Shown: positions 12,536 through 31,451 of the stretch, one piece after another
Numbering within the stretch: the first letter of the stretch is position 1
Layout of the letters: each line of letters begins with the position of its first letter
Virus record (IMG/VR): IMGVR_UViG_3300034082_000594
Coordinates: 1-31,568 of that record
Reading direction: 5' to 3' (one strand)
Source: a virus
Length of the DNA: 31,568 nt
The notes under the pieces: model-generated
Told to the model about the DNA's origin: nothing
The model's input: only the letters and a program-made list of their open reading frames with translations
The model's database searches: none
Made by a program: the position numbers and the translations under genes

Positions 12536-13906
12536 TCAATATTTTATTATATATTCAAACACTAAATTACCACATCCCCAATATCTTCTATATCCAGAAT
12601 TCATCATGTTATCTCGTTCGCTCACGTTAGGGTCATATGTATCTCCTACTATGCTTTGTAATTTAGTTTTATGTTGTGTTTGATATCTTGAATATATAGT
12701 GTTTTTGTTAAACCATATATAATCTGGATTACTTATTTTTATTAGATTGAAACCTATTTGTTTATAACTATTTCCATTACTGTAAGAACGATTACAGTAT
12801 GAAATTATTGATTTTTTAAAATCATAATATTTTATTGCATGTAGCAACATTCGGTTCATGCCGCCTATTATAGTATAATTTTTTAATGAACACATACGAT
12901 ATAATTCAATTCCATCACCAAATCTGTTTTTACCAAAACACATAATAGAAACCAGTTTATTTTCGTAAAGTAAACCAACTCTAAGTTTACTTGGAACATA
13001 TCCTTGAATATGATTTTCAATTAAGAATTTTTTATATATATTATTTGGTATATCAAATGTAATGCTACATTTTCTTGCATATATTTTTTCAGTTAAACCT
13101 AATTTAGATTTTATCATTGATTTAACTATTTCTTGATTATTATTCCAATCATTGTCTGTTATATGCAATAATATCATTCCAGAGTTTTCACATTTTTCTG
13201 TTTTTCTTAGATGATATTTTTTATCTTCAATTAATAATCCGTTTTCATCAAAATCATTTTTTCCATAAGAATGCCAATATAGCCCATTATGTTCTATTGC
13301 TACTTTTTTACTAGGTACAAAAATGTCTAATTCACTTCCGATAACACTAGTATCATTTTCAAATATATCAAGTTTTAATTCATTTTTTATGAATTCTTTA
13401 ATTGCTCTTTCTTCTTTACTAGTTTTAGTATATTGCCGTATAGATATTCCATTATCCAATAATCTTAATTTTATAGTTCTTGGATTTACGTTTAATTCAA
13501 GCGATATATCTTCTAATGATCTTTGGTTTTCGATATATTCTTTTTTAAGAAAGTCAATGTCATTTATTTTTAATACGGTGTTATATGGTATATGTGCAGA
13601 TTGTGTGTTTTTCTTTCTTTCGATATTATGTTTTTCTAACCAATAGCATACTTTTTGCTTTGTGGTTTTATTTTCTTCTGCAATTTGAATTGTGCTTTTG
13701 TTTTCAACAAAGTATTGGTTATACAACCACATGTAATCTTTTAAATTAGATGATAAAATATTGTTTATTTTGGTTATCTCAAACTTTTTTAGATATTTCC
13801 ATATACAAGCTTCGCTTACGTTTTGATCAATTGATATTTCACCTTGCGTTTTATTTTTATTAACATATTGATCATACAACCATTCTTTATTTTTATATAA
13901 ACTCAT
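12536..13906 (-). CDS. Free-standing homing endonuclease, Vsr-like EDxHD type
   Basis: This encodes 456 residues starting at an ATG at 13906, six bases after an AAGGA ribosome site. Residues 1-155 hold three repeated helix-turn-helix-like modules (around W9-F42, W60-I95 and F119-I154), each ending in a short helix, presumably for DNA reading. Residues of about 165-255 form a Vsr/EDxHD-type nuclease core: E192-L-D194-I-F, then IEHNGLYWHS (H206, H212), YHLRKTEKC (H232) and LLHITDNDW (H248, D253). The rest is the C-terminal domain common in phage homing enzymes, with FGKNRF, GGMNRMLLHAI, YCNRSYSNG and a final GYRRYWGCG. It lies between the tail operon and the capsid gene terminator without disrupting either. 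I infer that it cleaves a site near gene 23 in sibling phages and spreads by repair. The family is recognised from motifs; the target is not known. Confidence 0.85.
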   Translation of the reverse strand: MSLYKNKEWLYDQYVNKNKTQGEISIDQNVSEACIWKYLKKFEITKINNILSSNLKDYMWLYNQYFVENKSTIQIAEENKTTKQKVCYWLEKHNIERKKNTQSAHIPYNTVLKINDIDFLKKEYIENQRSLEDISLELNVNPRTIKLRLLDNGISIRQYTKTSKEERAIKEFIKNELKLDIFENDTSVIGSELDIFVPSKKVAIEHNGLYWHSYGKNDFDENGLLIEDKKYHLRKTEKCENSGMILLHITDNDWNNNQEIVKSMIKSKLGLTEKIYARKCSITFDIPNNIYKKFLIENHIQGYVPSKLRVGLLYENKLVSIMCFGKNRFGDGIELYRMCSLKNYTIIGGMNRMLLHAIKYYDFKKSIISYCNRSYSNGNSYKQIGFNLIKISNPDYIWFNKNTIYSRYQTQHKTKLQSIVGDTYDPNVSERDNMMNSGYRRYWGCGNLVFEYIIKY

Positions 13907-17948: not shown

Positions 17949-18158
17949 TTAAATTCCTAGATCAGCTTCGCCTTCGGTACTACCATAAATCTTTTGTAGA
18001 CGTTCACGATGAACCTGATTTTCTAATTCTCTAAGTTCACGTAATTTTCTAAGCTTATTAAGATGCTTTAATGTAAGCCGTGGTCGCCTTACATCGTCAA
18101 CATTTCGTTTTGTATAATTATCATTCTCTGCATCATAATATTCGCGAATTATTTTCAT
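17949..18158 (-). CDS. Small basic protein between portal and core genes (gp67 position)
   Basis: This encodes 69 residues. The ATG at 18158 overlaps the portal stop (ATGA), which implies translational coupling. The sequence is highly charged and helical, with DDVRRPRLTLKHLNKLRKL as its core (about residues 21-39). In T4 the gene at this position is 67, an acidic prohead core protein of about 80 residues. This protein is basic, so orthology with gp67 is doubtful and I give no symbol. I recall similar small proteins next to gene 20 in other marine T4-type phages. A scaffold or portal-associated role is a guess from position only. Confidence 0.75.
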   Translation of the reverse strand: MKIIREYYDAENDNYTKRNVDDVRRPRLTLKHLNKLRKLRELRELENQVHRERLQKIYGSTEGEADLGI

Positions 18159-21100
18159 CGTTGTTGTCCTTCTTGCCCACCTTGTGCGGGAGGTGTTACG
18201 CTACCAATTGGAGATACACTAGCTTCTGGAGCACCTTCGCCACCTAATTCATCGCCAACTGGTTCTCCCATATTCATATCGCCAAAATCTTCAAATTCAT
18301 TTCCACGAATACCAACATCGCTAAGTCCCATTTGATCTCCCAAATCACTAGGTTTAATTTTACCTTTTGGATTTTCTTCCATATACATTTGTTCATTTTC
18401 TAGTATTTCAGCAGGACTTAATCCAAGATATTTCTTCAACAAGAATCTACGACTTAGATACTTAGAACCTTCAAGTTGTCCAAATACACCAGCTTTTGCA
18501 GAATCAAGTTCAATTTGTCTATATTGACTAAAGCTTTGTGGCTCAGTGAATATTAAATCAAACATACTAGCGTCTATGTTAAATCCTCTATGCTTCAAAA
18601 ATCTTTTAAATTCACGATCAAATACTGGTTGAATTATATTTTGTAATCTTTGACAATATTTGTTGAATCTAAATTCTTGAATAAATGCTGTTCCAACTCT
18701 ACCGTCAGTAAACACAGCACCACTATCGTCTGAACTTAATGGCATGTAAGAAGATGGAATACGCAATCCACGCATCATTTTATCAGTGAAGAATTTTAAA
18801 TCACTAATTTCACCTAAATTGTCACCACCTGGTAATACTTCCACCTTTGAACCGCGACCATCACTGTTATGAACATAAATTCCAGCACCAAGACCAAACC
18901 AGTGACTACCAGATTCACTTTCAATTGTAATATCACCAGTATCTATTGTGTAATCTAATTCAATTACCTCTAATATTTTATGGTTTTGACGAACTGCAAC
19001 TTTATTAGAATATTTTGGTATACCAGTATATTCTACTTTCCAATCACCAAAAGTTTTATAACCAATTACGTTAACTATTCTATTCAATGTAGTATCAGTT
19101 ACACCCAATCGTTCAGACATATTGGGATCACGTATTGTACTTGGATTTGCAGTTAAGTAAGCATTATGAAATTCGTCGTCAATTCTTAATTCTTTGCCTA
19201 GTTTTTTTACGCTAGTATGACCTCTATCAAATGCGGAAACCATTGCATTAAACATTTCTATAGAATACTTAATTTTTCTATTTTCTGTATTTTCTTTAAG
19301 AGTTTTTACAAATTTTTCGCCAACTACTTTTTTTTCTTCTTCTGTAAATTTATTCCAATATTTTTTTGCATTTTTGCTGTTTCTTTTTGACAGCGATATT
19401 GTGAATTTTTCACTTGGATTTTCATATAATTTTTTCATTCCAGAAATAAGCTTATTTCTGCCTTCTTCCGTTTTCCACATATTAGTTAAAGAATAAGTTC
19501 CTATGCTTTTATGTAATGCTATATGATCTTCTGTTGTCATAACATTTAAGTTATTTGGGTTATTGTTTTGAGAATTAAAATCAATATGATGAACTTGTGT
19601 GTCTTTTCCTACTGGTTTTTTTGCAATAGTTGTATGGACAAACTTCTTTTTTCCATTATTGTTAGATACATATTTCATATATTGTTTTGATTTTTGATTT
19701 GGACCAGTATGCCCAAGTTCAAGATTTAATGGCATCAATGAATCACCGGATTTTAAATTCTGTGCTTCTACTTCTGTCCCATCCCGTAAAATAAATTTAT
19801 GATCAGGAGTTGCAATTACACTTTCCCCATTATCTAATCTTACTTCCAAAACTTTTGCATCACGTCGAGTTATCCCTGCCCACTTAATTTTTGCAGGTTC
19901 CAATTCATGTGTAACATTTGATAGTCCATATACCCAGTTTTCTTTGCCTTCTTGGTGTTCTTTTATTACTTCTTCTAATGTAAGTGTTCTTCCATCTAAT
20001 AATGGTAATTTTGTATCTAAAACCAGGCATCCTTGTGCAAAGAAGAAGTCTTCCATGATAGAGTTTTTAACAAAAATACCACTTTCGGTTGCAAAAGTAT
20101 GATAATTATGCCATTTTTCTTTACCATCAATGGTAATAGTTCCAGTATCTTGTTTTTCATTTATGTATTCTATATTAGTAATGCGATGGTTGAATACTTC
20201 TAATTTTGATACGAAATCTTTCCATCCTTTATATCCAAAGTGGAACAATGTTCTTTCAAAAATTTCAACGGTTACTTTATCATTTAATATTTTATAATTT
20301 TTTGAAGGATCACGTGGGTTATTTTTTCTTATTTCTTCTAAAAATTCTTCATTATTGGATAACAGTTCTATAGTTTGTTTTTTATTCGAATTATGCTTTT
20401 TAACAGTTTCCGAAATTATTTGAAGCATTCTGAAAGAATATACTTTATTTTGGTTTGGATAATTTTCAGTATATGTATTCAGATTGGGAAGTAAAACATC
20501 TTTGACAAATTCTGGATTTTTTTCTAAAAACTTTAATCTAACCGCTCTCATAGTTTTACTATATTTTTCTTTTACATAAGAATCAGTATTTCTAAGATTT
20601 ACCGCTTTTTTCTGTGCTTTTATTATATGATCTAATGCAATAATTCTATCTTCATTTGAAAGATTTTTCCATCTTTCAACTAATGTAGTTCTTATTTTTT
20701 CTTTGACTTCTACAGCCTCTTCTGGCGAAACATTTGCCCAGAAGTTACTATCACCATGGAATTTAAAATGATCTTCTTTGTTCATCCATTGTAGATTTTT
20801 TGGATCATTATTATATCTATTAAAATCTTTGTGGTGGACTATATTTTTATTTCCCTCGATTATGTAAGTAAATTCTTGATGTTTCCCAAGCTTTCTAAAA
20901 TATTCTCCAACCATTCTGTGAACAAAAGTCCATTCTTTATCATTATGATCATACACTTGCGTATATGTGGTTTTATTTTTAGAAGATGGCAATTTTTGCT
21001 GACGAGTTTCAAAACTAATCAAAGAATCACTGGGAGTTAAATCTTTAGCTTCTACAAAACCTTTTCCAAATACTGGTATTTTGTGGTCTGGAGTAACAGT

Positions 21101-22297
21101 AAGACTTTCCCCGTTATCAAAAGTAAGTTTTATAACTTGTGTATCTTTTCTAGTTATTCCAGCCCATGTTATCACACCAGGAACTATTTTTCCAGTTTCT
21201 GGATCACAACTATAAGCCCAATTTTCTTTACCATCTTGATATTCATTAATAAGTTCATTCAACTCTAGAGTTCTTCCATCAAGTAGTGGTATTTTGGTAT
21301 CTAATGCTAAACATAGTGGATTATATTGTGCATCCATTATGTTACTTCCACCGCCAGTTTTATTTGGAATACGCTTTTGGTGAACTTCCATTTTTACTTT
21401 TTCAAGAAAAGCGGATGCACGGTGTGCTGGCATATCACCAACATCTATATAAAATACTCTACGTTCTGGTGCACGTTGAACACGATAAATGATAATAGAA
21501 TCTTCTAGCAATTCTTTTTGCTTATATGTTTTAAATATTGGGTCTAGTATAGAACTACCAAATGGAAAGTTTGGGTCCATTCCTTCGGTCATAGCAACAT
21601 GTACTACATTATTGGAATCAACATGAAATTCATCAGCAGGATTGCTTATGTTGGCACTAGAGTATCCAGTATTGACGCCAGATTGTCTTCCGGTTAGTGT
21701 AGTAAATGTAGAATTTGTAATTCCACCAGTAGTTCTATTGATACCAATTGGGGTTGTTGCAGTTTTGTTTTGCAAGTTAAGGTCCAAATTTCGTATAATG
21801 TATTGTTCTGGTTCTTTTCCCTTACTTTCATTAATAACAACACCACTAACATCTTGTGGTTGAACAAACAATAATTGCCATGTTTCTGGATCACGAACAA
21901 ATGGCTGATCACCGTATTTGATAACATTTCTAAAAGTTTTAAAAATTCTACGATCCCAATCGTTTATATTGCACCATTGTTTTAATACTTGTTTGATTAT
22001 TTTAGCTTCACTTTCAGTAGGATCGTCGAGATATCTAACTTTAAATGGTGAACTTGTTTCTTCATCAAGTTGTGTAGCAAATTCTGCAATAGTATCAAGG
22101 GCCATGTTTATTTCACTATCCATGTCCATCTGATCGTATTGCATATATCGTTCTGTTCTATTTGGCATACCTGTATAAACTTCTGGTAGCCAACTTTGGA
22201 ATCTACTAGTATAACCTTCACTCCTATTTTTTCCCGCATTGGGTCCAGTTAATGGAGATTTATTCTGATATACTACAAAATGTTTTTTCCAACTCAT
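18155..22297 (-). CDS. gp20: Portal protein gp20, interrupted by two inteins
   Basis: The precursor has 1380 residues; removing the two inteins leaves 575 (328 + 11 + 236), close to T4 gp20 (524). The start at 22297 follows AGAGGAAAAATA. Family hallmarks include the YGDQPFVRD region (about 128), GMDPNFPFGSSILDPIFKTY (about 239-258), RRVFYIDVGDMPAHRA (about 279-294) and, after splicing, YNPL-SIMEDFFFAQG-SDGRGSKVEVLPGG. gp20 forms the dodecameric ring at one head vertex that starts prohead assembly, passes DNA during packaging and joins the tail. Both inteins fall in the most conserved core, so the protein should be non-functional until both splice. The C-terminal tail (after about 1320) is Gly/Pro/Gln-rich and variable. 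The gene follows the tape-measure-like gene and is coupled to the 69-residue gene. Confidence 0.95.
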   Translation of the reverse strand: MSWKKHFVVYQNKSPLTGPNAGKNRSEGYTSRFQSWLPEVYTGMPNRTERYMQYDQMDMDSEINMALDTIAEFATQLDEETSSPFKVRYLDDPTESEAKIIKQVLKQWCNINDWDRRIFKTFRNVIKYGDQPFVRDPETWQLLFVQPQDVSGVVINESKGKEPEQYIIRNLDLNLQNKTATTPIGINRTTGGITNSTFTTLTGRQSGVNTGYSSANISNPADEFHVDSNNVVHVAMTEGMDPNFPFGSSILDPIFKTYKQKELLEDSIIIYRVQRAPERRVFYIDVGDMPAHRASAFLEKVKMEVHQKRIPNKTGGGSNIMDAQYNPLCLALDTKIPLLDGRTLELNELINEYQDGKENWAYSCDPETGKIVPGVITWAGITRKDTQVIKLTFDNGESLTVTPDHKIPVFGKGFVEAKDLTPSDSLISFETRQQKLPSSKNKTTYTQVYDHNDKEWTFVHRMVGEYFRKLGKHQEFTYIIEGNKNIVHHKDFNRYNNDPKNLQWMNKEDHFKFHGDSNFWANVSPEEAVEVKEKIRTTLVERWKNLSNEDRIIALDHIIKAQKKAVNLRNTDSYVKEKYSKTMRAVRLKFLEKNPEFVKDVLLPNLNTYTENYPNQNKVYSFRMLQIISETVKKHNSNKKQTIELLSNNEEFLEEIRKNNPRDPSKNYKILNDKVTVEIFERTLFHFGYKGWKDFVSKLEVFNHRITNIEYINEKQDTGTITIDGKEKWHNYHTFATESGIFVKNSIMEDFFFAQGCLVLDTKLPLLDGRTLTLEEVIKEHQEGKENWVYGLSNVTHELEPAKIKWAGITRRDAKVLEVRLDNGESVIATPDHKFILRDGTEVEAQNLKSGDSLMPLNLELGHTGPNQKSKQYMKYVSNNNGKKKFVHTTIAKKPVGKDTQVHHIDFNSQNNNPNNLNVMTTEDHIALHKSIGTYSLTNMWKTEEGRNKLISGMKKLYENPSEKFTISLSKRNSKNAKKYWNKFTEEEKKVVGEKFVKTLKENTENRKIKYSIEMFNAMVSAFDRGHTSVKKLGKELRIDDEFHNAYLTANPSTIRDPNMSERLGVTDTTLNRIVNVIGYKTFGDWKVEYTGIPKYSNKVAVRQNHKILEVIELDYTIDTGDITIESESGSHWFGLGAGIYVHNSDGRGSKVEVLPGGDNLGEISDLKFFTDKMMRGLRIPSSYMPLSSDDSGAVFTDGRVGTAFIQEFRFNKYCQRLQNIIQPVFDREFKRFLKHRGFNIDASMFDLIFTEPQSFSQYRQIELDSAKAGVFGQLEGSKYLSRRFLLKKYLGLSPAEILENEQMYMEENPKGKIKPSDLGDQMGLSDVGIRGNEFEDFGDMNMGEPVGDELGGEGAPEASVSPIGSVTPPAQGGQEGQQR
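18866..20029 (-). mobile_element. Intein 2 in gp20 (388 residues, HNH endonuclease)
   Basis: It spans precursor residues 757-1144. The first residue is Cys (CLVLDTKLPLLDGRTL). Block B has T-P-D-H (about 829-832), and the C-terminus is GIYVHN followed by extein Ser1145. All residues for class 1 splicing are present: Cys1, block B Thr and His, penultimate His, terminal Asn and Ser+1. The middle carries an HNH nuclease motif (V902-H-H-I-D-F-N, N916, D924-H, H929) rather than the commoner LAGLIDADG type, followed by a helical DNA-binding-like region. It is very similar to intein 1 in both the splicing blocks and the HNH domain. It probably homes into the conserved gene 20 site of relatives. Confidence 0.93.
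20063..21313 (-). mobile_element. Intein 1 in gp20 (417 residues, HNH endonuclease)
   Basis: It spans precursor residues 329-745. It begins with Cys (CLALDTKIPLLDGRTL), block B has T-P-D-H (about 402-405), and it ends GIFVKN before extein Ser746. Terminal Asn and Ser+1 are canonical, but the penultimate residue is Lys rather than the usual His. The HNH motif reads VHHKDFN (487-493), then NLQWM, D509-H and H514. A longer helical region follows, ending in a helix-turn-helix-like segment before splicing block F. It lies only 11 extein residues before intein 2 and is clearly its sister. Splicing is expected because the portal is essential, but the altered penultimate residue may slow it. Confidence 0.92.
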
Positions 22298-22334: not shown

Positions 22335-25300
22335 TTATTGTGCAGCCTCGTCATATTTTCTGATCAATGTCCCAATTAATCTGTTTGTTTCTGTCATTAA
22401 TAATATCATAGATTCACTGTTTTGTGAAGAACTATTTGGTAGATTGCTATTAATTGCGGGTATATTAGTACTAGAATTATCAGTAATAGCAGCCCCAACT
22501 AAATCACCACCAACACCACCAACAGCAGAACCGCCAAAATATCCCAAAGCACCACCAATAACACCACCAAGGAATGCACCTGTCGCATTTCCAACTACTG
22601 GGACAGCAGTACCAATTCCACCACCATATAGTGCACCATATCCAGCCCCTGTCAAAGCACCACCAACACCACCAACAGCAGAACCAACACCTTCTGATTT
22701 TTGTCTGGTTGTAAGAGTTTCATCAGTCAATGCATCATATGCTTCATATGCTCCAATTCCAACAATTAGCGGGGTATTTAATTTACCTGCTATAACTTTT
22801 AATCCTGTACCACCACCAGCAGCAGCAGCACGTGCAGCATCATCTACTAAATTTCCACCAGCAGCAGTAGTAGCTGCAGCAGCAGTAGTAGCTGCAGCAG
22901 CCTTAGCAGCAGCCTTAGCAGCATCATCTACTAAATTTCCACCAGCAGCAGTTGGTCGTCCAGCAAATCCCATCATATTTCTAGCAGCAGCACTAGGAAC
23001 TCCTGGCCCTGGCTTAAATCCCATAAGCTTTGGAACTGCCTTCAACATTGTTGGAATTGACTTCAACATAGAACCAACCCCTAGTTTTTTAAAAATAACA
23101 AGTCCAGCAATAGTAGCAAGAATACCAGATGTAACGGGATATTCGGTAATAGCATCTTTTCCCTTATCAACGGCAATATCTGACACAGTGGGTATTATTC
23201 CATTTTTTTCTATATTATCTATGAATTTACGCAACCCGGTTATAAAATCTTTACCAGCAGCATTTGTGTCTATTCCTAACTGGTCAAGAACTCCGACTAA
23301 AATAGATTGTTTTATTGCATTTGCTGTATTTTGTAGTTCACTTGGTATTGCTAACCATGCCGCAGCTTTAATTGCTGCTCCTGCCGCTGCTTGTCCCTCA
23401 ATATTTTCCTCAACTAATTTATTAAGTCCTGCAAAGTTACTTGACATTTCTACTAACTTTTCTATACCAGGGATTCCAATGTTTGATCTGTATCCCATTT
23501 CTTGTGTTAAATTTTTATCAGAAAATATAGCAATCATTGATAATAGTTTAGCAGTGAATTCCTCTGTTGGCATTGATTTTACATTGTCAGACATAAAATC
23601 AAATACTTGTTCAAAACTATCTATGTCTTGAACAACTGCGGTTCTCAATTCTTCTGGAAGATTTTTTAAAACTATTGAAAAATCTTCACCAAATTGTGCA
23701 GATCGTAACATTTGGTTTCCGATTTCAATGGCTGAATCTCCCCCACGCTGCATAGTTCCCATAAATGAATCTACGTTTGCTGCTGCAACTGTGCTATTTT
23801 CAGACAATAGCTTAATAGCCAAGTTTAATGTTGAATCGTTTATTCTAGATTCATTCATTTTTCTACGCATTTCTCTAGCATCTTGTCCAGTCATTGCAGC
23901 TAGTTGACTAGTATTATAAAGCAAACCATTCATACTACTACTAACCGCATCATATATATCAGCACTATCCATGCCACTTTTGCGACGCAATTCTATTTCC
24001 TGCATTAGTATTTCGTTATATTCGTTATTTGTTAATCCAAAATTGTTAAAAACTTCGGCCTTATCCAGCAGGTCGTTACTTAACTCACTAAATTTTTTCA
24101 TACCAGAAGTAGTAGAATTTCCAAGTGATTTTACAGCTTTTCCATTTTCAGAAATTAATTTAGAAAAATCTAATAAATTCATTCCCGCATCTTTTGCAAA
24201 AGTATTCAATTGTAGCAAATCAAATCCTAATCCTGCTGAAACTCCAGATAAATTTTTAAGACCATTTATATATTCTTCTAAAACTGCACCACCAACACCA
24301 ATAATTGCAGCAGCTATTCCACCAATTATAGGTACAGCACCAGCCAGTTTTGATATAGAATCGGTAATTTTACTAAATGTTAATCCGGTAGTCATAGCAC
24401 TTCCAGCAAGCGAAGTTAGTCCGGTTACTGTTTGCCAAGCAGTATTTGCAAGTTGTTCTTGTACGTTAACAATCTTTTTGAAAATTTCATATGATTTTTT
24501 ATTATCTTTTTCTGTTGGAGATAATGAAGAGTCTTCGGTTAGATTATAATGTACTAACAATCTTTTTGTTAAACTAGTATATTCTTTATTATATATAGAA
24601 AAATCTTTTAGAGCAGATTTTAATTCTTCTATCGTTTTTACATCAGGGGATTTTCCATCCGAGACTTTAGCTAACGCATCTTTCAACGATTTTAAATACT
24701 CTTTTTGTAACCCTTTTGTATTTCCAGAATCAATAGCTTTTTTAAGATTATTAACACCTTTCATATAATTTTCATTATCAAAAGTTATAGGAATACCTTT
24801 TTCTTGTTTTTCCATTAAATCTTCAACAAAACTGGTAAACAAAGATTTAAAACTTAAATCTCTACGCTCTATAGTAAAAATATCAGGATCAGGCGTAGCT
24901 TTACCACCCGAACTACCCGTAGAACGTGTTATTTTTCCGCCTTGATCACTACCAGATGCAAATACTTTAGAAATTCTATTTGTATTTCTTAACATAGTTT
25001 TATATGTAGTAGAAATTTCTTTAATCACCAAATTCAAATCTATTAAACTTTTAGAAAGATATAGCAATGATCCTTCTACTAAGGTAATACTTGTACTATA
25101 ATTTTTTGATAACTCTGACATTTTTTTGTTAAAGTTAGTAGATGAATTATCAACATTTTGGGCTTTTGAACGAGCAACAACTGGTTTTGTTTTTTCAGAT
25201 TTTATAATTGTAGTATTTTGTTTTACTAATTCTTCTTGTTTCTTTTTAGATTTTTGTAATTCATCTACAATCTGTTTAAAATAATGCTCTTGAACCCTAA

Positions 25301-25529: not shown

Positions 25530-26363
25530 ATGACAGATAATCCACTTTCAAAATTATACAGACACAAATCAATTTATATACAATTACCAAGCAAAGGAAA
25601 GTATTATACCAGTGGTATTAATTTATCTATTGATAATGACCTTGGTATAATGCCAATGACTGCATATGATGAAATATCATTAAAATCACCAGATGCATTA
25701 TTCAACGGGGATGGATTAATAAATTTAATAAAAAGTTGTGTTCCAGATATTAAAAATCCAGAAGAAATGCCGTCATGTGATATTGATCCAATAATTATTG
25801 GAATACGTGCAGCAAGTAATAAGATATTAGAAACAGAAGTTGAATGCCCACACTGTAAAACTGAGCAAATTTTTAATTTAGATTTAACTATGTTGTTGTC
25901 AACTTTTAAAGAGATTAGTGAGAATAATATAATAGAATTATCTGGAAATACTATAATAAAAGTTAGACCATATAGTTTAAGAAGTCAGTTAAAAACAAAT
26001 ATACAGACATTCCATCAGATTAGAATGGAAATGATATTAAACAATAACGAGTCAATAACGGATGATAAAAAATTAGAATTATTCAATAGTGCATTTGCAG
26101 AAGCCACTAAATTGACAGTTGAGCTAGTAGCAGACAATATACTAGCAGTTGAATTGGATGACCTCATAGTAACTGACAAAGAACATATTTTTGAATGGGT
26201 ACAAAATATGGACAAACAAACCTATAAGACAATTGTAGAAAAAATTAAAGAACTTAGCAACGGCACAATGGAAAAAACCACGAAAGTTCAGTGTTCAAAT
26301 GCAGAATGCAATAAAGTATTTGAAACTATTATAGATTTGAACCCCGTAAGTTTTTTCACATGA
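25530..26363 (+). CDS. gp26: Baseplate hub assembly protein, T4 gp26-like
   Basis: This encodes 277 residues from an ATG at 25530 after an AGGAAAAAA site. The N-terminus, with IYIQLPSKGKYY and LGIMPMTAYDEISLKSPDAL, matches the T4 baseplate (gp26-type) family as I know it. These proteins act in baseplate hub or tail-tube initiation. It carries C106-P-H-C109 and C255-x4-C260, which could together form a zinc site. T4 gp26 is about 208 residues. The small next gene overlaps its stop (ATGA), and the divergent tape-measure-like gene lies on the other side, consistent with a tail initiation module. The family assignment is fairly firm; the exact role is less so. Confidence 0.75.
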   Translation: MTDNPLSKLYRHKSIYIQLPSKGKYYTSGINLSIDNDLGIMPMTAYDEISLKSPDALFNGDGLINLIKSCVPDIKNPEEMPSCDIDPIIIGIRAASNKILETEVECPHCKTEQIFNLDLTMLLSTFKEISENNIIELSGNTIIKVRPYSLRSQLKTNIQTFHQIRMEMILNNNESITDDKKLELFNSAFAEATKLTVELVADNILAVELDDLIVTDKEHIFEWVQNMDKQTYKTIVEKIKELSNGTMEKTTKVQCSNAECNKVFETIIDLNPVSFFT

Positions 26364-26590
26364 GGGCAATTAGATTATCTGGTATTGAATTACAAAAATA
26401 CATAGATAATCTAATTGCCCAAGGAGAATCTATTAAAAAAATACTAGCAGAAATATCAGTTTATAGTAATGGATCAATTAACTTACAAGATTTATACAAT
26501 ATGCCAATGACTCAGATTAAAATGATAGAAAAGGTTATATCAGATAAGATCAAATCAGAAAATAAGGTAACTGGTAAAGAATACTTGTAA
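26360..26590 (+). CDS. Small protein coupled to gp26-like gene, possibly gp51-like
   Basis: This encodes 76 residues. The ATG at 26360 overlaps the gp26-like stop (ATGA) and there is no separate ribosome site, so translation is probably coupled. The protein is helical and charged, with the segment GSINLQDLYNMPMTQIKMIEK reminiscent of small tail-assembly chaperones. In T4 the gene next to 26 is 51, a hub assembly factor of 249 residues, so this is far too short for a full gp51. I infer a tail or hub assembly helper from position. It ends just before a strong terminator. Confidence 0.6.
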   Translation: MRAIRLSGIELQKYIDNLIAQGESIKKILAEISVYSNGSINLQDLYNMPMTQIKMIEKVISDKIKSENKVTGKEYL

Positions 26591-26599
26591 TAGAAAAAC

Positions 26600-26631
26600 A
26601 AAAAGAAGGAAACATATGTTTCCTTCTTTTT
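26600..26631 (+). terminator. Perfect-palindrome intrinsic terminator after the gp26-like operon
   Basis: A 32-base perfect palindrome centred on CATATG (arms AAAAAGAAGGAAACAT and its complement) ends in TTTTTT on the plus strand. It begins about ten bases after the stop of the 76-residue gene. Being palindromic, it has a T-tract on both strands and could act in both directions. Confidence 0.85.
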
Positions 26632-26633
26632 TA

Positions 26634-27523
26634 TTGGTTCTACGAACCAATACATAATTAGTAAATGCATAATGAATCATGGTAATAATACTTACTCATT
26701 TCATTCGTAAGTATTTAACTAATGTATATAATACTCATTCCATTTCATTACATTCGTATTATATACATTAGTATTTTTTTGATTTATATTAGATACTGTA
26801 ATTATCATCATATGATTCATCATGATAATCATCATGTACAGATCATACTATCATTACCTTGGAGCAAGACATACTTAGCCTGTTAAGGGCCAAGTATGTC
26901 TAAGCTATAGATAAAATATTACCTCATCACCATGACATCTTATACAGATTTAACCTAAATTACTCGCGTAGGTCTGGGTGGTCAAGCGGTGCCCAACGTG
27001 TAATAAATCACACGTAATCTAACTTATTCAGAAATTACCAGTCTTGCTTGGTTTCCTCGACATAATGTCTTCTACCGTCCGCTCAGATAATCCCCTCAAT
27101 TGACGCAAGAACATATTAGCTGTATAAGTAACTTATATATGTTCTTTGTAGGTTTCCGAGGTATTGTGAATTGCCTACTCATTTCTCCAACTGGTCCGGG
27201 TCGGAACGCATGTGAACCAACTCTGTATAATAAATTACCAGAGGCGACTCTTCCAATTCATTCGCATGTAAACAGAGGCGTCAGACTAGAGGGTAACAAG
27301 TTCGTTACTATCACAGATATTATCTGCTAATCGCAATATGTGGGTTGCTAAAACTATTCACGGCCTATGTAGTGGTGAAAAATATTTTAGCGAAAGGGTT
27401 CTGTATATGGGAAAGGTATTGGTCAGGTGTTGGTTATATATTAGTTGATTTGTTATATTATAAAACTATACATCAATATTAGTGATTCGTCAAGATATTT
27501 TCTATGATTCACAAATCTTTTTT
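26634..27523 (+). ncRNA. Candidate large structured noncoding RNA
   Basis: This 890-base region has no convincing gene, and its centre (about 26860-27450) is noticeably less AT-rich than the flanks. It is filled with perfect stems: 26634-26640/26644-26650, 26687-26695/26707-26715, 26718-26734/26756-26772, 26801-26808/26822-26829, 26868-26876/26892-26900, 26996-27001/27010-27015, 27107-27116/27137-27146, 27293-27297/27304-27308 and 27314-27318/27322-27326. A two-part hairpin has 27347-27353/27385-27391 enclosing 27357-27361/27375-27379. AGAG-GCGA-CTCT (27240-27251) is a GNRA-capped stem, which favours the plus strand. A long-range helix, 26646-26653 with 27416-27423, may close the whole. AAGAT/ATCTT (27492-27519) plus a T-tract could be its 3' end. 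Size and phage setting recall GOLLD or ROOL RNAs, but I cannot assign a family. Confidence 0.55.
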
Positions 27524-27545
27524 ACTATTCCTCCTATAAATTATT

Positions 27546-27553
27546 TATAAATA
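27546..27553 (+). promoter_or_regulatory. T4-type late promoter TATAAATA for the GIY-YIG gene
   Basis: An exact late element 22 bases upstream of the GIY-YIG start. The expected start point (about 27560) falls just before the GGAGG ribosome site, the standard late-gene layout. The overlapping sequence also reads TATAAATA on the minus strand (27542-27549), where it faces no nearby gene. Confidence 0.7.
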
Positions 27554-27574
27554 GTATATAATGGAGGAAATATA

Positions 27575-28642
27575 ATGGAAACAAATGGACATTGGAAATA
27601 CGCAGAAATTATTAATATAGATGACTGGTTTGGATTTATTTATAGAATAGTTGAGCTATCAACAGGTAAAGAATATATAGGAAAAAAACAGTTTTGGTCT
27701 TTTACAAAAAAAGCAGTGAAAGGAAAAACAAATAAAAAAACAGTAAAAAAAGAAAGTAACTGGAAAATTTATACTAGCTCTTCAACTCATATAAATGAGG
27801 CAATTGTTAATAATGGGATAGAAAATTATTCATTTTTTATTGAATCTTTACATAAAACAAGGGGAAGTTTATTTTATGCAGAAGTAGAAAAACAAATAAA
27901 AGAAAATGTTTTACGAGAAAAATTGGAAGATGGTATAACGCCAAAATATTATAATAGACAAATAGCAGGAGTTAAATTTATTCCTCCTATGATATTAGAA
28001 GAGGAACAATATACTAATATTGACAATTATATAATAACTCCAAATAACATGTTTTATGGTAACATGATAGGAAAATATAATGGTATGTTTGGAAAACAGG
28101 GTATCAAAAAAGATTTAACATATGAAGAATATTATGGCGAAGAACGTGCAGCTATGATAAAACAAAAATTAAGTGAAGCTAATAAAGGAAAAGAAAGCAA
28201 ACATAAAGGATTAGCCATACACACAGACGAACAAAAAGAAAAATGGAGTAATGACCCTAGAAGAATTCATTATGGTGAAAATAACGGAATGTATGGAAAA
28301 CCTTGTTATATTAATATGACTGATAAAGAAAAAGAACAATGGAAAACAAATGTTGGAAATTCTATAAAAGGAATTAAACGAACCGACGAAACTAAGAAAA
28401 AAATGAGTGAATCTTTTTCTGGGAGAATATATCCAAAAGTTGAATGTCCGCATTGTCATAAGCAAGGATCAAATGCAAATATGATAAGATACCACTTTGA
28501 ATATTGCAAAGAAAATCCAAATGCTATACCTTATAAGATACCAGAAAAAATATTATGTGAATATTGTGATAAAAAATTTGATCCTGGTAATTTTAAACTA
28601 CATCATGGCGATAAATGTAAGAAAAATCCAAATAAGAGTTAA
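27575..28642 (+). CDS. GIY-YIG homing endonuclease with NUMOD3 repeats and zinc fingers
   Basis: This encodes 355 residues, with GGAGG (27563-27567) placed seven bases before the ATG. The GIY-YIG core is F21-I-Y-R-I, then K-E-Y34-I-G36, with the region around E103-E105 and Y126-N127 filling the later catalytic positions. From about residue 158 to 282 come NUMOD3-like DNA-binding repeats (MFYGNMIGKYNGMFGKQG, NNGMYGKPC, KGIKRTDETKKKMSES). The C-terminus holds two CCHC-type fingers: C291-x2-C294...H307-x3-C311 and C328-x2-C331...H344-x3-C348. This resembles Seg/Mob-type phage homing enzymes. It stands alone between the structured RNA region and gp46, under a late promoter. Its target is unknown; neighbouring intergenic DNA in relatives is the likely site. 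Confidence 0.88.
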   Translation: METNGHWKYAEIINIDDWFGFIYRIVELSTGKEYIGKKQFWSFTKKAVKGKTNKKTVKKESNWKIYTSSSTHINEAIVNNGIENYSFFIESLHKTRGSLFYAEVEKQIKENVLREKLEDGITPKYYNRQIAGVKFIPPMILEEEQYTNIDNYIITPNNMFYGNMIGKYNGMFGKQGIKKDLTYEEYYGEERAAMIKQKLSEANKGKESKHKGLAIHTDEQKEKWSNDPRRIHYGENNGMYGKPCYINMTDKEKEQWKTNVGNSIKGIKRTDETKKKMSESFSGRIYPKVECPHCHKQGSNANMIRYHFEYCKENPNAIPYKIPEKILCEYCDKKFDPGNFKLHHGDKCKKNPNKS

Positions 28643-28644
28643 TA

Positions 28645-28672
28645 AAAAAAGTGCCACGAATGGCACTTTTTT
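28645..28672. terminator. Bidirectional terminator between convergent genes
   Basis: A 12-base stem (AAAAAAGTGCCA with TGGCACTTTTTT) closes a CGAA loop, with T-tracts on both strands. It lies immediately after the GIY-YIG stop on the plus strand and abuts the gp46 stop on the minus strand, so it serves both convergent genes. Confidence 0.9.
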
Positions 28673-30438
28673 CAATCTTCGTATGAGTATGAGGTAAACC
28701 CTGATTCTTTAGTTACCATCAGTATTTTGTTTACTCGCCCTATTAATTCTTCACGGTGTGAAATTAACATAATGCTTTTATTTCGTTCTCTACTCATTTG
28801 ATTTAATAGTTCTAGCGATGCTTCAACTCCTGCGGTGTCTAGTCCACTGTCTACCAATTCGTCAATAGCCAAGAAATTAATACTATCATTCATACTTTCA
28901 AAAACGTCTCTAAATGCCCAACTTAAACCTAGAATTAATCTATTTCTTTCACCCCTAGATAAATTATCAAAATCTAAATCTCTACCCAGATTTGTTATAC
29001 TTACACTAAGATCAGATTGGAACATAACACTGTGTGGCAAACCTAATTTATCTAAGTAATGTTCAAGTCTAGTATTTAAATATACAAGATTTTGCTCAAT
29101 TATTTTTTTACGAATGAAAGAATCTTTATTTGTTAGTAACTTTAATAAAAATTTCTGGTGTTCTCTGACATTACTTAGTTCATTTAATTTGTCCCAAGTT
29201 ATGGTTTTAATCCCAGACTTTTTTAAATTAATTATTTGTTCTTCGTATTGATCGGTTTCTGCAATTTTTAATTCTATTTGCTTTTCTATTTGTTGAATGG
29301 AAGATTTATGCTCGTATGCTTCTGATACATTTTTATAGTAAGTTACTGGTTTTTCTGGTAGTGGATTAGCGTCAAATTCTTGCTGTAATTGTTCTATCAA
29401 TACATTAATTTCACTTATTTTTTGTGTAAGATCAGCATCGCTTGATTGTTTATCGGTTAGCATCTTTTCATGTGAATGGTCATGAATTTCTTGACTACAT
29501 GCATAACATTTATTATTTGCTAAACTTAAAATTTCATTACGTAATTTGTTTTGTTGTTCTACATAGTCTTTATATTTTCTTAAATTTTCTTTTATTTTTT
29601 TATCTAAATCAAGACGAATATTTACAGTTGTTTGATATTCTTTTAATAATTCATGATTGTTTATTTCTATGTTAATATCAAGTTGGGTTAGTTCTGTTAA
29701 TTCTTGTGTTAGATTTTCTAGGGCTTTACTTTTATTATTTTCCCATACTTTTTGTCTACGTTCTAAATCTTTAACACTTTTTTCAATTTGTTGATTTGCT
29801 TCATCGACTGCTTTTATTTTGTATTCTTCTTCTTTTACACTATCTTCAGTCGTTGATATTTGTTTTCTAAGTAAATCTGCTTTTTCACTTAGCATCGTTA
29901 TACCTAATAGTTTTTCTATAATATCACGTTGATCTTTAGCTGGCATCGCCAAAAATGGGTTAGTAAATGTATTCAATGCAACTAAGTGTCTAAACATAGT
30001 TGCATCCATTCCTATTATTTTATCAATTTCTTTCTGACTATCTGCATTTTCGCCCAATGCATCATTTGTTTCGCCTTTTGCTGGTTTACCAACTTCGGTA
30101 TTGTTTATATAAAATCTAAAAATAGAAGGCTTTCTTCCTCGCTCTATTTTATATTGTGTTCCATTCTTTTCAAATTCAAATATAACAAGCATATCTTTTG
30201 TATTTGTTATATTGATTAAATTATCTTTTTTTATCGTGTTTAATGCTACGCCATACAATGCAAAACATATTGCATTAAGAACGGTACTTTTACCCACTCC
30301 ATTTTTGCTACCATTTCCTCCTAAATCTAGATTATTTCCTAGAACTAGAGTTAGTTCTCCATCAGTAAAATTTATTAACTGTGGAACATTCCCAGTTGAT
30401 AAAAAGTTTTTCATACTTACATTTTTAAAAGTAATCAT
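28672..30438 (-). CDS. gp46: Recombination endonuclease subunit gp46 (SbcC/Rad50-like)
   Basis: This encodes 588 residues. The ATG at 30438 overlaps the gp47 stop (ATGA). It is an SMC-type ATPase that acts with gp47 to process DNA ends for recombination-dependent replication. The Walker A segment is SKNGVGKST (44-52), with a Ser at the first Gly position and a preceding GG-rich loop. Long coiled coils flank a zinc hook, C311-Y-A-C314, which dimerises the complex. The ABC signature LSRGERNRL is at about 492 and Walker B FLAIDELVD at about 519. Length is close to T4 gp46 (560). It is co-transcribed after gp47. Confidence 0.95.
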   Translation of the reverse strand: MITFKNVSMKNFLSTGNVPQLINFTDGELTLVLGNNLDLGGNGSKNGVGKSTVLNAICFALYGVALNTIKKDNLINITNTKDMLVIFEFEKNGTQYKIERGRKPSIFRFYINNTEVGKPAKGETNDALGENADSQKEIDKIIGMDATMFRHLVALNTFTNPFLAMPAKDQRDIIEKLLGITMLSEKADLLRKQISTTEDSVKEEEYKIKAVDEANQQIEKSVKDLERRQKVWENNKSKALENLTQELTELTQLDINIEINNHELLKEYQTTVNIRLDLDKKIKENLRKYKDYVEQQNKLRNEILSLANNKCYACSQEIHDHSHEKMLTDKQSSDADLTQKISEINVLIEQLQQEFDANPLPEKPVTYYKNVSEAYEHKSSIQQIEKQIELKIAETDQYEEQIINLKKSGIKTITWDKLNELSNVREHQKFLLKLLTNKDSFIRKKIIEQNLVYLNTRLEHYLDKLGLPHSVMFQSDLSVSITNLGRDLDFDNLSRGERNRLILGLSWAFRDVFESMNDSINFLAIDELVDSGLDTAGVEASLELLNQMSRERNKSIMLISHREELIGRVNKILMVTKESGFTSYSYED

Positions 30439-31451
30439 AGATTTAAATAAATCTCCATAAGTTTTTCTTTGTTTATAAATTCACTATCTACTGCTGATAG
30501 TTGTGATATTACTATTTGATCTACGTTTTCAATAATTAAATTATCTCCACTCCAATCTTTAGCATGTTCGTCTGTTTTTTGTGGTATCAATGATAATTCT
30601 CTAAGACCATATTGTGTTACAAATGTTTCTTTAATGAAATTAGATTCTTCATATGATATTGGAACATCTATTATTATTTTACAGTTTAATTTTTCTGACA
30701 AATAGTCATCTGGCTTTTCTAATAAGGTAGAAAGATTTATGTTTATATATTTTGGACCACCATCCCAGTCTATATATCTTGGAGTTTTATCCCATTCCAA
30801 AATCATCATTCCTCTTTCATCGTCCCATACATCTGCATAATTATGAGCAAATGGCGAACCTACATAATGAATTTTTCCATTATTTTGTCTTTTATGAAAA
30901 TGTCCTGAAAATACATAATCTGGTTTGACGAAATCTTCTTTTTTTAATCTACCGTGATCTGGCATTTCTACCATTTCGTTCATTTTAAAATGCGGCAGTT
31001 CAAAATGACCAAATATATATTTTGAATTTATTGCCGACATTTTTTTCCATTCATCTTCTACTAACCATGGAACTAGCGTAACATTACCTGCGGTCATTTT
31101 ATCTTCTACAACAACAATATTGTTGAAACTAGTTGCAAATGGATAGCTATAAAGGTCTCTTTTTTCTCTGAAATAAATGTCATGATTTCCTAATATTAGG
31201 TAAACTTTTTTAAAAGATTTGCTTAATTTTTTAATACATTCATAACCACAATTTAATGTGCTTACATTAATTGAATTTCTAGTATGATATAAATCTCCTA
31301 AAAAAATACAAGTTTCACAATTTTCTTTTATAGCATTATCGCAAAACCAGTCAATAAAATTATGACAATCTTCGTTGTGTATTTTTGAATTATTTTTTAA
31401 ACCATAATGAATATCACCAAAAATAGCAGCTTTTTCAAAAAAATTTATCAT
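30435..31451 (-). CDS. gp47: Recombination endonuclease subunit gp47 (SbcD/Mre11-like)
   Basis: This encodes 338 residues (T4 gp47 is 339), with an AGAGGAA site before the ATG at 31451. It is a metal-dependent phosphoesterase, the nuclease partner of gp46. Calcineurin-like motifs are all present: D13-I-H15, G-D53-L-Y-H, G-N89-H90-D, G-H149-F and G-H184-F-H186. It is the first gene of the 47-46 pair, and the four-base overlap with gp46 suggests coupled, balanced synthesis of the subunits. Confidence 0.96.
   Translation of the reverse strand: MINFFEKAAIFGDIHYGLKNNSKIHNEDCHNFIDWFCDNAIKENCETCIFLGDLYHTRNSINVSTLNCGYECIKKLSKSFKKVYLILGNHDIYFREKRDLYSYPFATSFNNIVVVEDKMTAGNVTLVPWLVEDEWKKMSAINSKYIFGHFELPHFKMNEMVEMPDHGRLKKEDFVKPDYVFSGHFHKRQNNGKIHYVGSPFAHNYADVWDDERGMMILEWDKTPRYIDWDGGPKYININLSTLLEKPDDYLSEKLNCKIIIDVPISYEESNFIKETFVTQYGLRELSLIPQKTDEHAKDWSGDNLIIENVDQIVISQLSAVDSEFINKEKLMEIYLNL

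Follow-up and report, generated by a model that had tools for sequence, protein, structure and literature searches.

A probable conserved structured RNA gene between gene 26/51 and gene 46 of T4-superfamily phages

Introduction

What, if anything, is encoded by nearly 1 kb of DNA without a gene in a phage genome that is otherwise tightly packed? The question is raised by 31,568 nucleotides (31.6 kb) of IMG/VR sequence from a phage of the T4 superfamily, a fragment referred to here, as a whole, as the window. A first-pass annotation, made from the letters alone, had proposed that positions 26634-27523 are a large ornate noncoding RNA, either a divergent relative of GOLLD and ROOL or a new class. 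Few known RNAs are as elaborate as large phage RNAs of the GOLLD and ROOL kind, whose tasks have yet to be worked out. Here, we compare the stretch with its counterparts in other viral contigs and suggest that it very probably contains a conserved structured RNA gene.

Results

A gene-free stretch next to gene 46

Our starting material was the window and one syntenic homologue, L007 (65% nucleotide identity). The features that border the stretch in the window are:

25530-26363, plus strand: gp26-like baseplate hub protein (PF12322)
26360-26590, plus strand: small gp51-like ORF, conserved (57% identity to its L007 counterpart)
27502-27525, minus strand: remnant of a resolvase C-terminus, VKKICES and stop (last seven codons 27505-27525), seen by comparison with L007
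27575-28642, plus strand: SegE-like GIY-YIG endonuclease (PF19835, E 4e-32), in the position of the L007 resolvase
28672-30438, minus strand: gp46, SbcC-like (phrog_77, E 1e-98)
30435-31451, minus strand: gp47, SbcD-like (phrog_100, E 2e-59)

Judged by gp46 (45-48% identity), the closest named relatives are jumbo phages, namely the Pseudomonas phages Paride, PA5oct and MIJ3, Sinorhizobium phage Phosso and Agrobacterium phage Atu_ph07. In L007, a PDDEXK resolvase-like gene lies where the window has its endonuclease gene, and we infer that in the window the endonuclease gene replaced a resolvase gene, leaving the last seven codons and the stop behind. In relatives, SegE-like genes occur at the same border but on the other strand compared with the window (27502-28642).

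The gene-free stretch is real: 26591-27574 holds no credible gene, the longest ORF being a TTG-initiated one of 76 aa, and the conserved core described below has 11-20 stops in each reading frame. The GC content of its centre is raised, as had been noted (0.37 compared to ~0.29 in the surroundings), several of the longest perfect inverted repeats of the window are found here (26600-26631, 26718-26772 and 26867-26901), and the stretch folds far better than its dinucleotide shuffles (z -6.7 on the plus strand and -3.5 on the minus strand). An ARAGORN scan of all 31.6 kb detected no tRNA.

Other parts of the window also carry unusual elements. The start of the gp51-like gene has a 17-bp perfect inverted repeat (26364-26420), and an GGGCAATTA...TAATTGCCC-like pair is kept at the start of this gene in relatives. 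The gp20 portal protein gene (18155-22297, minus strand) contains two intein-splicing stretches and HNH endonuclease domains, and the repeats 19933-20020 and 21217-21304 in this region fit two related inteins. A free-standing HNH homing endonuclease gene (12536-13906, minus strand; phrog_3339) adjoins the major capsid gene, and short internal repeats with a raised-GC patch at 22654-22952 coincide with the overlap of a 459-aa ORF (plus strand) and a 1040-aa ORF (minus strand).

Homologues occupy the same slot in many phages

In L007, gp46 is 74% identical to that of the window and the gene-free region is in the same place, and in several of its stems both arms have been rewritten; a further contig, L005, is 99.9% identical to the window and was uninformative. 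Alignment of gp26 brought in 80 viral loci, 74 of which extend far enough to be counted. An ORF-free gap of 410-1404 nt lies at most 1.9 kb downstream of gp26 in 69 of these 74 loci, and in the remaining 704 kb just four more gaps reach 350 nt or longer. An HMM built from the window and L007 matched ten of the slot gaps (E down to 5e-14) and gave no match in distant relatives; an HMM of the core matched 56 slots, 33 of them distinct, with E values from 1e-47 to 3e-8. In total, counting exact sequences and including three extra copies in one genome, we found 59 distinct cores in environmental viral contigs; apart from these extra copies, every one of them sits between gene 26/51 and gene 46. 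On the side that is upstream of a minus-strand RNA, nearly all relatives have a minus-strand gene for a resolvase-like PDDEXK or a SegE-like GIY-YIG protein, and in most of them the core lies 190-460 nt downstream of this same-strand gene. T4 late promoters (TATAAATA) near the RNA were not a family-wide feature among the relatives compared.

Searches by nucleotide similarity were less productive. When the region was compared by blastn with named phages and plasmids, short chance matches alone came back; blastn of two relatives against phages returned none, and exact-pattern scans of viral contigs with strings conserved between the window and L007 recovered only these two. A 24-nt match in Arthrobacter citreus was judged to be due to chance; it is at the end of an 8 kb locus that has no other homology, the right flank being beyond that locus.

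Compensatory changes argue for a folded RNA

Comparison of the window with L007 and with the wider family points to the following parts, listed in order of coordinates:

26600-27530, minus strand: RNA gene, predicted extent (conserved ORF-free slot; strand from covariation and GU/AC tests)
26600-26632, both strands: palindrome with U-runs on both strands (sequence)
26687-26715, strand not assigned: 9-bp hairpin with related loop (sequence)
26718-26772, strand not assigned: 17-bp hairpin, the arms of which differ in L007 yet pair
26850-27204, minus strand: family-conserved core with P6, P5, insert, P3, P2, R1, P1 and R2 (nhmmer, alignments A4 and A6, covariance model R1)
26853-26859, minus strand: 3' repeat copy R2, AGGTAAT (covarying direct repeat)
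26856-26998, minus strand: match to covariance model R1 (79.3 bits, E 6.1e-16 in its own record)
26867-26901, minus strand: P1 hairpin (covarying, 94.4% of cells paired)
26918-26924, minus strand: 5' repeat copy R1, AGGTAAT (covarying direct repeat)
26952-26973, minus strand: P2 hairpin (87.9% paired, double changes in 4 of 5 pairs)
26975-26995, minus strand: P3 hairpin, GGG..CCC (99.3% paired, double changes in 5 of 5 pairs)
26996-27145, minus strand: expansion specific to the window and L007, with hairpins at 26996-27015 and 27108-27145 (alignment, sequence)
27148-27178, minus strand: P5 hairpin, GUAGG..CCUAC (inner helices 98.9-100% paired in 30 sequences)
27187-27204, minus strand: P6-like hairpin, CCGAC..GUUGG on the minus strand (sequence, alignment)
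27347-27391, minus strand: nested two-part hairpin, 5' part (comparison with L007)
27542-27553, both strands: TATTTATAAATA palindrome, a candidate T4-type late-promoter core on both strands (sequence)

Thirty divergent members were aligned, once per strand. The minus-strand alignment folds into 34 pairs, 25 of which have double changes (-24.4 kcal/mol), compared to 18 pairs for the plus-strand alignment (-16.8 kcal/mol). In alignment A4, 95.6% of the cells in 26 minus-strand pairs are standard pairs, and 140 cells with double changes were observed as opposed to 50.3+-5.9 in shuffles (0 of 500 reached the observed value); when partners were moved by 1-3 columns pairing fell to 28-48%. Both controls leave some relatedness in place, and in the slide control relatedness is kept while the structure derives from the same sequences. 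A 23-pair version restricted to the P3-P2-P1 domain (A6) behaves in the same way. The inner helices of P5 show many double changes with up to four pair types, and the loop of P3 is conserved (ACCGC or GACCRCC-type). The P6-like hairpin appears to stand where relatives have the GGUUUGACAAACC hairpin. A 3' hairpin with an GAAUGAAAUG-type loop was rejected as a general feature, given that perfect hairpins are found in 17 of 59 members and in 11 of 59 for a control stretch; the loop motif itself is confined to one locus. The structure that is family-wide spans ~250 nt; for the remainder of the 0.9 kb, support comes from one homologue.

The P3-P2-P1 domain of the 30 members was used to train covariance model R1. 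Because the training set of 30 includes the window itself, the independent test of the model lies with the held-out members, and the model found such members adjoining gp46, among them L068 (E 1.9e-19), L056 (8.5e-19) and L066 (1.5e-17). The strong matches share one orientation; weaker matches on the opposite strand overlap them and arise because P1 is nearly palindromic. The match in the window lies 3' of gene 26/51 on the minus strand.

These data bear on the possibility that the stretch is a decayed gene or neutral filler. The few remnant resolvase codons at 27505-27525 fit such a history, which could apply to the flanks only; for the core it is refuted by the covariation, along with conservation over 59 distinct sequences, and for the locus as a whole we regard it as hardly credible.

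The covariation check that the first-pass annotation had suggested for homologous intergenic regions thus yielded strong covarying pairs, and the nested two-part hairpin at 27347-27391 is borne out by direct reading of the L007 counterpart, which is rewritten with the nesting kept. Other arguments for an RNA fared less well. The stem at 27240-27251 is capped by the GNRA loop GCGA on the plus strand only, the loop on the likely RNA strand being UCGC. The 8-bp match between 26646-26653 and 27416-27423, thought to join the ends, is present but not kept in L007, and by our estimate a stretch of 890 nt should contain inverted 8-mer matches by chance alone. Neither argument is evidence for an RNA. 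Nor do the ends at 26634 and 27523 delimit the conserved part, which is instead ~26850-27204; the right border falls in the resolvase codon remnant (VKKICES, minus strand, 27505-27525).

The RNA is likely on the minus strand

In the minus-strand structure, G-U cells outnumber A-C cells by 77 to 6. Because the minus strand had been used to choose this structure, helices defined without a strand preference were tallied too: on the plus strand they give 42 GU and 68 AC cells, which points to the minus strand. In the model-fitted alignment A7 the tally is nearly even (GU 18, AC 13), and P3 by itself leans to the opposite strand in the strand-neutral tally. Based on these indirect signs and on covariation, we consider it likely that the RNA is on the minus strand, in the direction of gene 46, and that the transcript probably runs from right to left, from ~27530 to ~26600, the two ends being approximate predictions.

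The plus strand, which the first-pass annotation had implied, would place the end of the RNA at a hairpin with a T-run (27481-27522) that is kept in L007, and the window by itself folds better against shuffles on this strand (z -6.7 versus -3.5). The family-wide folding and the GU/AC tests favor the other strand, however, and the conserved terminator-like element overlaps the C-terminal codons of the resolvase, so that we judge a plus-strand RNA improbable.

A pair of phage-specific repeats flanks P1

P1 is flanked on both sides by a 7-nt direct repeat, the two copies of which are identical or nearly identical within a phage and different between phages. The repeat is AGGTAAT in the window (26853-26859 and 26918-26924, minus strand), CGGAAAT in L007, and TGTCAAG, TGCCAAG, TGTGAAG, GGTGAAG, GGCAAGT, GGATGAT and others elsewhere; a few members, e.g. 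L203 and L182, have no clear pair. In the training set the two copies of a phage match at 6.73 of 7 positions compared to 5.65 of 7 with copies of other phages, and in held-out members at 6.68 compared to 5.73 of 7 (0 of 20000 permutations in each case); the permutation test ignores relatedness, yet close relatives show parallel changes (TGTC, TGCC, TGTG). Pairing with a complementary partner in cis was rejected as an explanation, the duplex energy being -5.71 for own and -5.79 for cross combinations, and no reverse-complement copies of the repeats were found in cis.

One tentative explanation is that the two identical repeats offer the same kind of contact to a single partner, which co-evolves with them and might be a phage protein or a second copy of the RNA. 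We know of no RNA with such same-sense covariation of repeats. If true, it would imply either that a dedicated partner co-evolves with the RNA or that one segment is copied from, or swapped for, the other by some mechanism.

Extra copies away from gene 46

Record G006 (317.7 kb) contains four copies of the RNA domain, L223, L224, L225 and L226 (E 1.7e-19, 2e-12, 5.7e-9 and 8.3e-5). Three of them are not near gp46; most genes around these three have the same orientation as the RNA, and no recognised endonuclease gene was found beside them. In 29 other records there is at most one copy each, palindromic shadows aside.

The copies help to weigh two alternatives to a stand-alone RNA gene. (i) The conserved structure could be a cis-acting element in the 3' UTR of the 47-46-resolvase mRNA, acting in stability, termination or processing, in line with the distance of mostly 190-460 nt between the core and the same-strand resolvase or GIY-YIG gene. 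The size would be unusual for such an element, however, and in the window the upstream gene was swapped for an endonuclease gene on the opposite strand while the RNA core was kept. Because three paralogous copies in one genome are located away from gp46, an independent RNA gene is favored over the 3' UTR element, which we consider a less likely, although substantial, alternative. (ii) The hairpins and iteron-like repeats could act as DNA, for instance in a replication origin or recombination site. Consistent with this, the stretch adjoins the replication-recombination genes 46 and 47, has AT-rich palindromes at 26600-26772, and carries a hairpin flanked by identical 7-nt direct repeats that are specific to the phage. 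DNA hairpins are not expected to show an excess of G-U over A-C on one strand, but the pairs vary via G-U far more than via A-C on one strand, and together with small nested helices with conserved loops and four copies in one genome this makes a DNA element very improbable.

Other sequences in the same slot

A second conserved, structured RNA-like sequence group, type A, occupies the same slot 3' of gp26 in 22 loci (among L009, L011, L012, L019, L026 and L032-L053), several of them on contigs of 360-385 kb. Its alignment folds at -202 kcal/mol compared to -119+-2.8 in column shuffles and, with 19 GU and 60 AC cells on the plus strand, also leans to the minus strand. The type A loci searched gave no match to Rfam, and model R1 had no match in those searched with it or in Paride, Phosso and Atu_ph07; we therefore do not claim that these slots are homologous to the RNA described here. 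The gap is ~1.5 kb in Paride, PA5oct and MIJ3, where it is gene-free or has tiny predicted ORFs, and ~1.0 kb in Phosso. ORF-poor slot sequences are also found in L015, L020, L028 (7525-9039) and L029 (8232-9247), Paride and Phosso being among them. Those of L015 and L020 are 79% identical to each other and have 3' patches in common with type A, that of Paride has one short patch in common with L015 and L020, and that of Phosso stands alone.

Discussion

Combining the conservation, covariation and strand data, we suggest as the best reading that the stretch is a stand-alone noncoding RNA gene on the minus strand that is selected for its folded RNA. The RNA would be transcribed downstream of the 47-46-resolvase genes. 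In the window, after replacement of the resolvase gene by the endonuclease gene, transcription may instead proceed from the TATAAATA promoter at 27542-27553, where the TATTTATAAATA palindrome could serve as the start of the minus-strand RNA. The 3' end would be near the palindrome at 26600, and 26600-26632 is a terminator-like end of gp51 and possibly also the 3' end of the RNA. We lean toward a trans-acting mechanism, with the RNA working as a stable structured molecule or as an RNP. More speculatively, there may be a widespread class of large trans-acting RNAs, sometimes present in several copies, in jumbo and marine T4-like phages that carry a duplicated recognition element; this element could consist of the two identical phage-specific 7-nt segments, which change together and have no complement in cis, although both proposals are tentative.

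The family has a fixed address (gene 26/51 - RNA - resolvase - 46 - 47) and a clear consensus from 59 distinct sequences, and can therefore be sought in cultured phages and tested there. The cultivated Pseudomonas phages Paride, PA5oct and MIJ3 offer an entry to the laboratory, though the gap of Paride has no match to model R1.

No Rfam family reached its gathering score in the window, and only short chance matches were obtained at E<=10 in the window and E<=1-2 in relatives; GOLLD, ROOL, HEARO and group I and II introns, the models named in the first-pass annotation, were absent. We found no description of this RNA family in the open-access papers searched. The RNA family is a member of no Rfam family and very probably represents a new class of large phage RNA: of the original proposal, a large RNA of a new class is upheld by homologues, covariation and held-out members, whereas a divergent GOLLD or ROOL is not, given the lack of an Rfam match. 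An intron was also rejected, since there is no match to group I or II and the genes on either side, gp51 and gp46, are each intact and have no relation to one another.

GOLLD is often, but not always, near tRNA genes. The new RNA resembles GOLLD, ROOL and the abundant orf-less RNA of phage ICP1 in size, in its setting in lytic myophages and in the lack of protein coding; it differs from GOLLD in having no Rfam match, in not being beside tRNA genes and in its slot between gene 26/51 and gene 46. GOLLD itself is a large elaborate phage RNA of unknown function with a conserved and a variable part, and forms a 14-mer RNA nanocage (PMC12286853). ROOL is likewise a large structured RNA of phages and prophages with no coding function, but the new RNA has no match to it, and setting and motifs differ. 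Some members of the new family lie beside an endonuclease gene, as does HEARO. There is, however, no match to the Rfam model; the endonuclease here is of the GIY-YIG type, is not conserved and is on the opposite strand in the window, and three extra copies have no recognised endonuclease gene beside them. Finally, in phage ICP1 the most abundant transcript is an ~800-nt RNA without an orf, from an orf-less gap of ~1 kb (PMC7567579), and phage K produces lncRNAs, i.e. large noncoding transcripts (PMC9241854). These transcripts are known from RNA-seq of single phages; what they would have in common with the RNA proposed here is that they are large noncoding transcripts in lytic myophages.
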